From assembly GCF_000473225.1 (NCBI RefSeq), contig NZ_KI421509.1, positions 4,242,336 through 4,306,335 on the forward strand: 64,000 nucleotides of DNA, written 5' to 3'. The position numbers and the translations under genes were made by a program. The stretch comes from Sedimentitalea nanhaiensis DSM 24252 (GTDB lineage Bacteria; Pseudomonadota; Alphaproteobacteria; Rhodobacterales; Rhodobacteraceae). Shown here in pieces: positions 27,191 through 48,055 of the stretch; position 1 is the stretch's first letter; each line of letters opens with the position of its first letter. The notes beneath the pieces are model-generated. The model made no database searches and had not been told where the DNA came from. It saw only the letters and a program-made list of their open reading frames with translations.

Positions 27191-27934
27191 TTACCATTTC
27201 ACCATACCTGCGTCCACGTTGACGGTCTGTCCGGTCATCCAAGCGGCATCATTCGAGACGAGAAAGGACGCAACTTTCGCGACGTATTCAGGCTGCCCCT
27301 TACCAGGCATTGCCTGTAGCATTTCCACGAATTCAAACGCCTCGTTATGCGGGCTGGCCTTGACCCCGTCCGATTCGATCAGGCCTGGCGTCAGCGCGTT
27401 GATGCGGATGCCCTCCTTACCCAATTCGGTTGCCAGCGCCCGGGTCAGCCCGATCACGCCACCCTTGGCGGCAACATATGCGGCCATGTTGGGCGTACCG
27501 GCGAAAAAGGTATTTGATGCGATGTTCAACACGACGCCCTTGCGGTCCGCTACGCGCATCATGTCGGTCGCCTTACGGCAGGTCAGGAACACGCTCGTCA
27601 GGTTCGTACCAATGATCTTGTTCCAATGCTCCAGATCGACATCATCCCATGCCACGAACGGAACAATGCTGGCGTTGTTTACCAGGATATCCACTGCGCC
27701 GTCCCGCGCCGCCTGCACCAGCATCGCGTTTACGGCGGCAGGGTCCGACACGTCGCAGGCAACCCCTCGGGCCCCGTGTCCAATGTCGGCAGCAGCGGCC
27801 ATCGCTCCGTCTTCGTTGATATCCGCGATGAACACAGTCGCGCCATCTTCCGTCAGCCGCTTTGCGATGGCCTTGCCAATGCCCTGTGCCGCGCCTGTCA
27901 CCACCGCGTGCTGCCCGTTCAGTTTTCCACTCAT
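27191..27934 (-). CDS. pyridoxal 4-dehydrogenase (SDR family, vitamin B6 degradation)
   Basis: This SDR of 247 residues oxidises pyridoxal (as its hemiacetal) with NAD to 4-pyridoxolactone. TGAAQGIG is at 13-20, with NNAS and catalytic Ser140, Tyr153 and Lys157. The long segments [20 protein letters not shown], [20 protein letters not shown] and [20 protein letters not shown] match what I recall of the tetrameric pyridoxal 4-dehydrogenase of Mesorhizobium loti. The ATG at 27934 with AAGGAA upstream is the start; a longer frame reads through the aminotransferase gene. It lies 26 bp after that gene, in an operon with the lactonase, which gives the next step. Confidence 0.9.
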
Positions 27935-27960
27935 GTCAAAATTTCCTTGTTGTTGTGATG

Positions 27961-29148
27961 TCAGGCGGCGTCGATACGGATCTGAACCGCCGCCATTCCG
28001 GCGGCCAAGTCTATATCTACACCTTGCGCCTTTAGCGCGCCGCCAAGTGCGGCCACTGCAATCAACGCATAGATCGGCTGTGCGGTTGGCCCCATGTGGC
28101 CGATACGAATGAGTCGACCAAGCGTTTCCGCCCGCCCCGCCGAAAGCGAAACGCCATAGCGTGCGCGCGCTTCGGCCATGACCGGCGCGGCATCGACACC
28201 CTCTGGCATCCGAACCGCAGTCGTTGTCGGCGACGCGATTTCCTCGCGCACAGCCCATAGCGACAGGCCCATGGCCTGAATACCCGCGCGACAGGCCGCC
28301 GCCGTCAGCGCGTGCCGCGCCCATACCCGGTCTGCGCCCTCGTCCATGTACCTATCCAGCGCCGCGTTCAGCCCGTTGATTTCGGCAACCGACGGGGTGA
28401 ACGGAAAAGCCTCTGTTTCCTTCCACGCATGACGCCAATCCTTGAGGCTGAGCATCGAGGCAAACGGCGCGTGCGGATTGGCTTCGATCTTGGCCCAGGC
28501 CGCATCCGACACCGCCACCAGCGACAGCGACGGCGGGCACCCCAGGCATTTGTTCGGCCCGGTCACATAAACCCCTGCCTTACACGCTGCCGGAGACGTC
28601 GGCATGCCACCGAACGAGGAAACCGCATCGACAATCAACAATGCTCCGGCCTCGGCCACGATGGCACCGATGGCATCGATATCGTTGATAGTGCCGGATG
28701 GGGTGTCGTGATGACAGACACAGACTACGGCAATCTCGGGGTGTTCGGTCAGGTATCGGCGCACCGTTTCGGGGTCGATACAGTCGTCATAGGCGACTTC
28801 GATCTCTTCGACCCGTTTGGCATAGCGTGCGGCCCAATATCCAAACCCTTTGCCATAGACGCCCGAGGCCAGATTCAGCACCACGTCGTCCTTGGCAATC
28901 AAGGACGCCGCCGCGGCTTCGAGCCCAAGAACCGGTTCGCCCTGCAGGATCATCGGTGGGGTATCCACGCCCATGACGGATTGAGCCTTGCGCGAAACCT
29001 CCTGGTAAAATGCCTGAAACGCCGGGTCGTAGTCATATAACACAGTCGTTCCAAGCGCACGCAGCACCTCGGGATAGGCATCCACCGGACCAGCGGTCAG
29101 CGTGAACACCGGCGGCATCGTTTCGGCGTATCGCAAGGAGTCAGCCAT
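27961..29148 (-). CDS. ppaT: pyridoxamine-pyruvate aminotransferase (class V, fold type I)
   Basis: This 395-residue enzyme transfers the amino group of pyridoxamine to pyruvate, giving pyridoxal and alanine; it uses its substrate in the place of PLP cofactor. It has TLTAGPV at the N-terminus, [28 protein letters not shown], the Asp in [12 protein letters not shown], Lys200 in TGPNKCLG as the Schiff-base residue and [13 protein letters not shown] near the C-terminus. These segments match the Mesorhizobium loti enzyme closely from memory, much more so than generic alanine-glyoxylate aminotransferases. It overlaps the lactonase gene by 8 bp and precedes pyridoxal dehydrogenase. Confidence 0.92.
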
Positions 29149-29947
29149 AGTAGTTCACTCCGGTCCGGTAGTCCTTGAAGCTTTCGGCATCGTGCGAAAA
29201 CATCAATTCCGCGCCGGTCTCATCGGCGATGCCGCGCAAGCGCTGCATTGATTGCACGCCGGCGATCGGATCAATGTGGAACCCGGCCTGTACTCCCAAT
29301 TCGAGGCTTTTCTTGGTATAGGCCGCGTCAATGGTGAATAGGATCGGCGCACGGTTGGGCAGGTCCACCAACAGGCTGTAGTTGCCGATGGCATGGCCGG
29401 GCGTGAAAATCAGCTTCACCCCCTTGGCCAGCTCCACGTCGCCTTCGACCACGTCAAAGCGGCTGTTGGCGTCGGTCTGACCGGCCGTCAATTGGTCGGC
29501 CATGCCCCGTGCGGCAGCCGCCTCTGCCGAAAAGGACATATCCGAATATCCCAGAACCTCGAAGGGCTGCGGATTGGCCGCCTGTTCGATCTCGGCCTTG
29601 TGGCAGATCTTCTTGGCATCCGGGAAAAACTTGTTTCCGCCCACGTGGTCGAAATGGAAATGCGAATTGAACACCACGTCGATGTCCTTGGGCTCTAACC
29701 CCAATAGCTTCAGCGCACCGGGAATGGTTTGCTGCTGGGTCTGTTGCGGCTTCTCAAAGGGCAGAACCTTTTGTACGTGGTCAAAATCATAGCCGGTATC
29801 GATCAGGAACCGCCCCTCGGCATGTTCAATCAGGATCGAATAGACTGGGAACCGGACCTCTCCGCCCGGGCCCTTGTTCCACCAGATGTGAAACCCATCC
29901 AGAACCAGTGATCCGCCGTCCAGCAGGAAAACCTTTGTATCTGTCAT
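29141..29947 (-). CDS. 4-pyridoxolactonase (metallo-beta-lactamase fold)
   Basis: This 268-residue zinc hydrolase opens 4-pyridoxolactone to 4-pyridoxic acid. The MBL signature HFHFDH is at 96-101, with further ligands in [16 protein letters not shown] and a C-terminal FSHDAESF. N-terminal [39 protein letters not shown] and [20 protein letters not shown] closely resemble the Mesorhizobium loti 4-pyridoxolactonase as I recall it. It is the third enzyme of one pathway encoded side by side with PPAT and pyridoxal dehydrogenase, which makes the assignment strong. Confidence 0.92.
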
Positions 29948-29980
29948 ATTGCGACTCCTTCCTATCGTTTTCGGTCCCGA

Positions 29981-47182: not shown

Positions 47183-47222
47183 GCGGGGACCAAAATTCGA
47201 ACCTGCCCGAACGAACCACTAT

Positions 47223-47246
47223 AAGACCATTTGTGTCAATGGTCTT
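47223..47246. promoter_or_regulatory. GntR-type operator palindrome between the GMC oxidoreductase and GntR genes
   Basis: AAGACCATT-TGTGTC-AATGGTCTT is a perfect 9-bp inverted repeat, with a further half-site TTGGTCT at 47252-47258. It lies 40 bp from the GMC start and about 95 bp from the GntR start, in the 159-bp divergent gap. FadR-type GntR proteins bind short dyads such as this; assignment to the adjacent regulator is inferred. Confidence 0.6.
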
Positions 47247-47341
47247 GATATTTGGTCTGGCAATCGCTACAAATAGAAGAGTAGGCTGCTGCAAATGAAG
47301 CATTCCGCAGCACCACGCGAAATAACAACTAAGGTGGTCGA

Positions 47342-48055
47342 TTGCCCCAAGACGCAACAAACCCCGACGGCACAGACGCTGGAAATCTGTCGCCTGACGC
47401 GCTCAAGGAACTGCTGCTCGAGATGGGCGGTCCCGATCAGGACTTGCCGTCCGAGCGTCAACTTTCAAGCGATCTTAACGTGCCCCGGTCGCGATTGCGA
47501 CGCGTGCTGGCCGAATTGCGTGCCAAAGGCGATTTGCCCCCAGCCCAAGTCGGTCGCAAATCGCACCGCAGGGACAATAGCCATATCGACGATCTGGTCA
47601 GTGTTGCGAATCCGACCGACGTTATTGAATTGCGCATGATCCTGGAGCCGCAATTCGCCCGTCTCGCCGCGATCCGCGCATCAGGCAATGAGATCAAGCG
47701 CATTCAGCGCCATGCCGAAAGTCGCAAGGGCGAAGATTATGGCGCGGCAGACCTTGCCTTTCACCGCGAACTTGCCGGCGCTTCGCGAAATCCGCTGGCG
47801 CAGGAACTTTATGACCTGTTGCGGCAGGTTGGCACCGACAGCCGCGTTCGACTGGCCCGGACCGGCCCGCCCTGCCCCAAGCGGCGTGCTGAACGGGACA
47901 AGGAACACCAGCAGATCGGGCAGGCAGTGGCAGATCGCGACCCGGATCGCGCCGAGGCACTGATGCGGGCCCACCTCGTCAACGTGCGTCGGGTGATCGA
48001 GAACCGGATGCAAACATTTACCGCCGCCGACCCCGCTGAAATGACACGGCAATAG
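47342..48055 (+). CDS. GntR-family transcriptional regulator, FadR subfamily (FCD domain)
   Basis: This 237-residue protein has an N-terminal winged helix (LPSERQLSSDLNVPRSRLRRVLAELRAKGDL) and a C-terminal FCD domain (NPTDVIELRMILEPQFARLAAIRAS, DYGAADLAFHRELAGASRNPL, EHQQIGQAVADRDPDRAEALMRAHL) with the metal-binding Asp/His pattern. A TTG start is used at 47342, preceded by AAGGTGG; stops rule out an upstream start. It is divergent from the GMC gene, the same arrangement as a GntR-type regulator beside pyridoxine 4-oxidase in rhizobial vitamin B6 loci. IS6 copy 3 starts just after its stop. Confidence 0.9.
   Translation: MPQDATNPDGTDAGNLSPDALKELLLEMGGPDQDLPSERQLSSDLNVPRSRLRRVLAELRAKGDLPPAQVGRKSHRRDNSHIDDLVSVANPTDVIELRMILEPQFARLAAIRASGNEIKRIQRHAESRKGEDYGAADLAFHRELAGASRNPLAQELYDLLRQVGTDSRVRLARTGPPCPKRRAERDKEHQQIGQAVADRDPDRAEALMRAHLVNVRRVIENRMQTFTAADPAEMTRQ

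Follow-up and report, generated by a model that had tools for sequence, protein, structure and literature searches.

According to one published account (PMC3538738), the degradation of no cofactor is better understood than that of vitamin B6, for which two routes are known. In the closest described system, pathway I of Mesorhizobium loti MAFF303099 and Pseudomonas MA-1, the lower half is defined by three enzymes, 3-hydroxy-2-methylpyridine-4,5-dicarboxylate (HMPDC) decarboxylase, the flavin oxygenase MHPCO, and acetamidomethylene-succinate (AAMS) hydrolase (AAMSH), and the end products are succinic semialdehyde, acetate, CO2, and ammonia. The window analyzed here, a 64,000-nucleotide stretch of Sedimentitalea nanhaiensis DSM 24252 (genome G000; 4.95 Mb in 7 contigs, rated 100% complete with 2.36% contamination), contains a region of about 21 kb (positions 27191-48055) that shares with pathway I a pyridoxamine-pyruvate aminotransferase (PPAT), a pyridoxal 4-dehydrogenase (PLDH), a 4-pyridoxolactonase, a probable 4-pyridoxic acid dehydrogenase (4PADH), an FHMPC dehydrogenase (FHMPC_DH), and a BMP/ABC importer, and whose surrounding genes match the MHPCO-type locus of Mesorhizobium. 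It differs in carrying a bicupin dioxygenase, an LVIVD propeller protein, a Rid-family protein (RidA), and a GST, and neither the three lower enzymes nor a clear pyridoxine 4-oxidase was found in the host. The locus is classified as a B6-degradation variant and not as a member of pathway I, because searches for the three defining lower enzymes gave no convincing match. The region is likely to encode an alternative degradation of vitamin B6, following the upper half of pathway I to HMPDC and continuing through the bicupin, LVIVD, Rid, and GST proteins. This module probably replaces HMPDC decarboxylase, MHPCO, and AAMS hydrolase by a different chemistry, which we infer.

The replacement can be followed within Mesorhizobium, the genus of Mesorhizobium loti DSM 2626, in which 146 genomes were searched. 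FHMPC_DH (scoring over its cut-off) is present in 56 of them, the bicupin (E<=1e-60) in 22, and MHPCO (at least 93% identity) in 35. The 56 genomes with FHMPC_DH divide into 22 with the bicupin and 34 with MHPCO, leaving none with both and none with neither, and FHMPC_DH is present in all 22 bicupin genomes and in 34 of the 35 MHPCO genomes. The MHPCO genome lacking FHMPC_DH (G433) carries just a fragment of MHPCO, and a 36th match (G326) is only a 42% homologue. The LVIVD gene was detected in five of five bicupin genomes tested, the host included, and in none of five MHPCO genomes.

A comparison of two loci locates the exchange precisely. In genome G334, whose MHPCO is 100% identical to 3alj, a GMC oxidoreductase gene and a GntR/FCD regulator gene (both on the minus strand) are followed by AAMSH, MHPCO, two small ORFs, HMPDC decarboxylase, a second GMC gene, which we take to be 4PADH, and FHMPC_DH, after which come an ABC importer, BMP/ABC genes, lactonase, PPAT, and PLDH. 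The upstream GMC gene of the Mesorhizobium B6 locus is presumably pyridoxine 4-oxidase. The corresponding locus of M. loti DSM 2626 (L017) reads GMC and regulator (both minus), 4PADH, bicupin, LVIVD, RidA, GST, and FHMPC_DH. From FHMPC_DH onward it has the same genes as G334, with 7.7 kb at 88.8% nucleotide identity up to the end of the fetched L017 stretch, and the 4PADH gene aligns at 76.7%. No counterpart of the bicupin, LVIVD, RidA, or GST is seen in the G334 locus at E<=1e-3. The module occupies the exact place of MHPCO, the decarboxylase, and AAMSH in an otherwise syntenic locus.

The same genes stay together in 77 loci gathered from public genomes with the bicupin as query. LVIVD lies near the bicupin in every locus, accompanied by RidA in 74, GST in 71, and FHMPC_DH in 58, and none of the 77 contains a homologue of MHPCO, HMPDC decarboxylase, or AAMS hydrolase above 40% identity. 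A 4PADH homologue (at least 55% identity) is found in 63 loci, and 33 have a gene that shares at least 50% identity with the upstream GMC of G334. Two loci (L001 and L008) appear without GST only since the stretch ends early. L062 has no RidA, GST, or FHMPC_DH, and L064 has a RidA match of only 46 residues and no GST. The module is kept beside B6 genes in several alphaproteobacterial groups and accompanies other upper genes in some Burkholderiales. One of the two explanations offered by the original prediction, a variant with a different ring cleavage, is thus supported by the Mesorhizobium partition, the same-locus replacement, and the conservation of the module, with the chemistry itself remaining a proposal. 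As a separate observation, the Roseomonas loci L044 and L045 (7046-13260) contain GMC-bicupin-LVIVD-RidA-GST and a TRAP transporter with no FHMPC_DH in the fetched stretch, so that the HMPDC-forming step must be encoded elsewhere there.

Two further samples, one of the class (n = 289) and one of the order (n = 390), were drawn independently of the bicupin, with the host genome counted in both. FHMPC_DH is rare in both. It occurs in four class genomes including the host, always with the bicupin, LVIVD, RidA, and GST beside it; in one of the four (G163, locus L047) the dehydrogenase scores 485.5 bits, just below the cut-off of 500. MHPCO matches at E<=1e-30 occur in 10 of the 289 class genomes (best 50% identity), none of which has FHMPC_DH. 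The order sample yields FHMPC_DH in three genomes including the host, each with GST, RidA, and LVIVD alongside. In two of these, L140 and L141, the retrieved 3.9 kb stop short of the bicupin. Their FHMPC_DH sequences match those of L004 and L003 exactly, and both of these loci contain the bicupin. Seventy FHMPC dehydrogenases were placed in a quick tree with two distant homologues as root. Its four MHPCO-type rows group as a single clade (SH-aLRT 100) that is nested among 64 bicupin-type rows, with a support of 81 at the nearest fork and up to 99 at outer forks. This hints that the textbook MHPCO module may be the later arrival in Mesorhizobium, and it is only a hint because most rows came through the bicupin search and just four are MHPCO-type.

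The 21-kb region contains no gene for MHPCO, HMPDC decarboxylase, or AAMS hydrolase, as the original prediction had noted, and the search was extended to the whole host genome. MHPCO, the query for which was verified against 3alj, has no match at E<=1e-30 in a search that scored 6 of 20 first-look candidates, and its best full-length match to the eight FAD_binding_3 proteins encoded by the genome is 26.9% identical. For HMPDC decarboxylase (query: 207 residues of 2z7b) the best match in the host is 25% over 135 residues (E 1.6e-6), and AAMS hydrolase (query 3kxp) matches nine hydrolases that look generic, the best at 30% (E 3.3e-15). The second explanation, that the lower pathway lies elsewhere in the genome, was therefore not borne out; such genes had been named as the finding that would overturn the variant reading, and that reading stands, since the search returned no convincing candidate. 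Among the 28 bicupin genomes searched (28 of 29 loci chosen from the 77), MHPCO matches at E<=1e-10 occur in 20, and none longer than 200 residues exceeds 34% identity. A Skermanella genome with a bicupin-type locus contains a 49% match to MHPCO residues 152-341 (190 residues) with an in-frame stop (L110; G300:C31:67289-67846), perhaps a relic of a lost textbook gene.

NCBIfam equivalog models with curated cut-offs were used for pathway-enzyme calls, and the PPAT, pyridoxal 4-dehydrogenase, 4-pyridoxolactonase, and FHMPC dehydrogenase recognized by the original prediction all exceed these cut-offs (Table 1). The top PDB match of the window PPAT is 2z9u (E 2.2e-169), an entry named aspartate aminotransferase, which we take to be PPAT itself. 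The ORF of pyridoxal 4-dehydrogenase extends to 28324, and homology starts only near 27934; the gene, earlier given as 27191-28324, is corrected to start there. The GMC oxidoreductase, also confirmed, shares 66.9% identity with the gene located between HMPDC decarboxylase and FHMPC_DH in G334 and 33.8% with the upstream GMC of that genome. Because of the former identity it is very likely a 4-pyridoxic acid dehydrogenase; the original prediction noted neither its fit to this step nor the lack of a clear pyridoxine 4-oxidase in the genome. With the GMC gene upstream of the L017 locus as query, a choice made by position, no clear pyridoxine 4-oxidase was found in the host genome; the best match is the probable 4PADH itself (40%), and the others are partial matches of 38-40%. 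The host strain therefore probably starts from pyridoxamine, pyridoxal, or 4-pyridoxate.

The window bicupin has the fold and the 3-His iron site of the gentisate 1,2-dioxygenase family, whose members usually act on benzene rings. His119, His121, His160, Arg83, Ala125, Arg127, and His162 are conserved in all 36 aligned members. In a published account (PMC11264262), salicylate dioxygenase holds its iron and its hydroxy-carboxylate substrate by the equivalents of the Fe ligands, Arg83, Arg127, and His162, and a conserved Gln, Trp, and Asp of gentisate dioxygenases touch the substrate. The latter three positions are exchanged in 36 of 36 aligned bicupins (Q108R, W172N, and D174S), whereas ten outgroups have Q in nine, W in ten, and D in ten at positions 108, 172, and 174. 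These exchanges and a TIGR02272 score of 205.2 bits, below the curated cut-off of 442.1, set the protein apart from the gentisate and salicylate 1,2-dioxygenases (3bu7, 2phd, 2d40). Arg108, Asn172, and Ser174 would make the pocket more cationic, as a second carboxylate would require. The bicupin is not classified as a gentisate dioxygenase, because it misses both the cut-off and the contact residues, yet it probably works like one. Unlike the gentisate and salicylate routes, the operon has no fumarylpyruvate hydrolase among its genes.

We lean towards a third B6 route, in which an Fe(II) bicupin opens the pyridine ring at its 3-hydroxy-4-carboxylate with neither a flavin oxygenase nor decarboxylation, and the Rid, propeller, and GST proteins release pyruvate together with C4 and C1 products. 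The bicupin would hold HMPDC by the ortho pair of 3-hydroxyl and 4-carboxylate, in the manner of salicylate and gentisate dioxygenases with their substrates, and would insert O2 between C3 and C4. Cleavage at this bond before any decarboxylation is proposed because HMPDC, like salicylate, retains a 4-carboxylate beside the 3-hydroxyl, and a 4-carboxylate serving as metal-binding group is consistent with a module that has no decarboxylase. The predicted ring-opened product, -OOC-C(CH3)=N-CH=C(COO-)-CO-COO-, is an N-vinyl imine of pyruvate and would suit the combination of a Rid deaminase with a hydrolase of the propeller fold and an isomerase of the GST type. Hydrolysis of its C=N bond would free pyruvate and leave aminomethylene-oxaloacetate, a substituted 3-aminoacrylate that the Rid protein would deaminate. 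The propeller protein may hydrolyze formyl-oxaloacetate, or an earlier intermediate, and the GST may isomerize the enone as in gentisate routes, which is the weakest of these assignments. Such a route would end in pyruvate, formate, ammonia, and either oxaloacetate or the product of its decarboxylation, in contrast to pathway I.

The three proteins proposed to act with the bicupin were grouped with it and with FHMPC dehydrogenase in the original prediction, and all four genes were found at the places given there. The predicted model of the LVIVD protein (pLDDT 88.6) has 5hrm as its first Foldseek match (E 1.2e-17), nine orders of magnitude ahead of the next protein (4.1e-8), and a profile search against PDB sequences returned 5hrm (E 2.6e-11) and 5ioj, the same enzyme, as sole matches. 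This enzyme, the haloalkylphosphorus hydrolase (phosphotriesterase) of Sphingobium TCM1, shares the propeller fold with the LVIVD model and shows weak sequence kinship to the protein. The Sphingobium enzyme has a binuclear metal center, and the His, Glu, and Asp residues that are invariant across 36 LVIVD sequences would fit a predicted metal site. M. loti DSM 2626 encodes a second LVIVD protein, 42% identical, outside its B6 locus (G296:C1:455331-456398).

The Rid protein, whose ORF opens at 42972, has an Arg127 and a Glu141 that are invariant in 15 of 15 aligned sequences; in this family the invariant Arg and Glu have a catalytic function. Imines and enamines are the substrates that Rid proteins deaminate (PMC5619798), and RutC deaminates 3-aminoacrylate in pyrimidine catabolism (PMC8113886). 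The window protein belongs to the same family as these RutC/RidA deaminases, and the enamine predicted here is a substituted form of that substrate. It scores 73.7 bits against TIGR00004, below the cut-off of 106.25, and under the cut-off of the RutC model as well.

Several points weigh against the proposed route. The set of 77 loci was itself found through the bicupin, and genomes of the same genus are not independent, so that the Mesorhizobium partition is no probability; the figure 1/C(56,22) = 4.7e-16 was not used, the genomes being related. The bicupin is distant from characterized enzymes (205 versus 442 bits), with 25-33% structure-aligned identity to the characterized dioxygenases. We infer the substrate, the cleaved bond, the order of the later steps, and the products, the first two by analogy, and the roles of LVIVD, RidA, and GST are suggested by family membership only. 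The VIA Z of the LVIVD model to 5hrm is tied with that to WD40 proteins (32.0 versus 31.4), which leaves the Foldseek rank and the profile match as the basis of the hydrolase reading. In two loci (L046 and L049) FHMPC_DH directly follows LVIVD with neither RidA nor GST nearby, suggesting that both may be dispensable or encoded elsewhere.

The alternative that survives best, although unlikely, accepts that the module replaces the lower pathway and has the bicupin cut another bond of HMPDC, such as C2-C3, or act on an HMPDC-derived compound made by an unrecognized enzyme such as the propeller protein. The module swap shows replacement and not which bond is cut, the propeller is present in 77 of 77 loci and may act before or with the bicupin, and the bicupin pocket is altered relative to gentisate dioxygenases. 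However, the Fe ligands, Arg83, Arg127, and His162 are kept in 36 of 36 members, and HMPDC offers the matching ortho pair.

It is considerably less probable that the strain stops at HMPDC and excretes it, the module degrading an unrelated hydroxy-aromatic acid with which a transporter or regulator is shared. Gentisate-type dioxygenases being mostly benzene-ring enzymes, and 19 of the 77 loci having the module without FHMPC_DH (L062 and L064 also without a 4PADH homologue), could be read in this way. Yet 16 of these 19 loci keep a 4PADH homologue (55-67%), and eight (two Pandoraea, three Achromobacter, two Bordetella, and one Martelella alba record) have, next to this homologue (56-64%), genes for an aldehyde dehydrogenase and for an NMT1-type ABC importer. 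This aldehyde dehydrogenase would fit the oxidation step of FHMPC_DH, and the use of a different enzyme for one oxidation ahead of an unchanged module points to HMPDC as the compound at which the routes converge. The module also sits exactly where MHPCO, the decarboxylase, and AAMSH are found in G334.

A textbook lower pathway elsewhere in the genome, with the bicupin operon serving another task, deserves almost no credence, for although the genome encodes eight FAD monooxygenases and alpha/beta hydrolases, the best full-length MHPCO match is 26.9%, the decarboxylase search does not rise above 25% partial identity, 28 bicupin genomes are without an MHPCO match of more than 200 residues above 34%, and the Mesorhizobium partition is complete.

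Table 1. Features of the B6 region, in window coordinates.
Feature	Position	Strand	Evidence
Pyridoxal 4-dehydrogenase (SDR)	27191-27934	-	NF047923 397.7 bits (cut-off 325), ORF residues 136-377
Pyridoxamine-pyruvate aminotransferase (PPAT)	27961-29148	-	NF046070 654.6 bits (cut-off 600)
4-Pyridoxolactonase	29141-29947	-	NF047925 480.8 bits (cut-off 325); best PDB hit 3aj3, E 1.3e-137
BMP-type ABC importer: two permeases, double ATPase, substrate-binding protein	29981-34632	-	BPD_transp_2 (twice), ABC_tran, and Bmp domains
DctPQM-type TRAP transporter	35148-37992	-	DctP, DctM, and DctQ domains; synteny
FHMPC dehydrogenase, HMPDC-forming	37989-38903	-	NF042925 530 bits (cut-off 500); best PDB hit 4om8, E 5e-126
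GST-like protein, proposed glutathione-dependent isomerase of the ring-opened product	38933-39535	-	GST_N/GST_C; role proposed
TAXI-type TRAP transporter: fused permease and NMT1-like binding protein	39532-42439	-	DctM, NMT1_3
Rid-family protein, proposed imine/enamine deaminase	42520-42906	-	PF01042 73.9 bits (cut-off 27.3)
LVIVD propeller, proposed metal-dependent hydrolase	42932-44086	-	PF08309
Bicupin dioxygenase, proposed HMPDC 3,4-dioxygenase (ring opening)	44102-45256	-	Bicupin fold, 3-His iron site, TIGR02272 205.2 bits
GMC oxidoreductase, probable 4PADH	45533-47182	-	Identity to G334 GMC gene
Candidate operator AAGACCATT-N6-AATGGTCTT, between regulator and GMC genes	47223-47246		9-bp inverted repeat seen by eye, pattern chosen afterwards
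GntR/FCD transcriptional regulator, divergent	47342-48055	+	PF07729 82.8 bits

All named genes of the region lie on the minus strand except the FCD/GntR regulator. Inward from the regulator, the order is GMC, bicupin, LVIVD, RidA, the two genes of the TAXI-type TRAP transporter, GST, FHMPC_DH, the DctQMP TRAP transporter, the four genes of the BMP/ABC importer, 4-pyridoxolactonase, PPAT, and pyridoxal 4-dehydrogenase. Every gene named in the original prediction was found as placed; its picture of the region fell short in that much of the 21 kb is devoted to transport (BMP/ABC, DctPQM, and TAXI-type TRAP systems). The order of the BMP/ABC importer beside the B6 genes is kept in related loci, and TAXI-type TRAP homologues stand in the matching position in L001, L041, and L043. 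The ORF of the BMP substrate-binding protein opens at 34785.

The regulator earlier described as FadR-type is confirmed as an FCD/GntR gene, and 65 of the 77 related loci have a divergent homologue of it within 900 bases. Besides the candidate operator (Table 1), one AGACCA occurs upstream of the bicupin. A scan for conserved palindromes with perfect 5-base arms and spacers of 0-4, which is blind to the 6-spaced repeat of the window, found none in more than 7 of 66 regulator-side stretches and none in more than 12 of the stretches preceding the bicupin.

Two neighboring clusters flank the B6 region. Just past the regulator, positions 49832-55155 (plus strand) encode a three-subunit molybdenum hydroxylase (FAD_binding_5, Fer2, and MoCoBD) with CoxG and a DctP-type TRAP protein, preceded by a TetR-like regulator. 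On the other side, positions 22316-26209 (minus strand) encode a DctP-type TRAP protein with amidohydrolase, HAD-type hydrolase, and isochorismatase-family genes, possibly another catabolic cluster for an N-heterocycle or an amide.

Among plasmid relatives, FHMPC_DH and bicupin queries gave no match above 60% identity. A PPAT query returned four plasmid records at E<=1e-60, and one of the two examined has a third arrangement. This locus (L094, positions 2496-23675), on a Rhizobium daejeonense plasmid (NZ_CP048425.1), combines PPAT, lactonase-like, and BMP/ABC genes with a 4-hydroxyphenylacetate-3-hydroxylase-like oxygenase, a 2,5-dihydroxypyridine dioxygenase, two amidases, and an MmgE/PrpD protein, and is perhaps a further B6 or pyridine variant.

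Searches of a library of open-licence PMC papers, which lacks most subscription papers, found no report of a bicupin in B6 degradation. Mesorhizobium, the genus that served to work out pathway I, itself contains a different lower half in 22 of its 56 relevant genomes. If the proposed route is correct, the bicupin would be a new pyridine-ring-cleaving dioxygenase, and three poorly understood proteins, the LVIVD propeller, a catabolic Rid protein, and a GST, would gain a concrete role.

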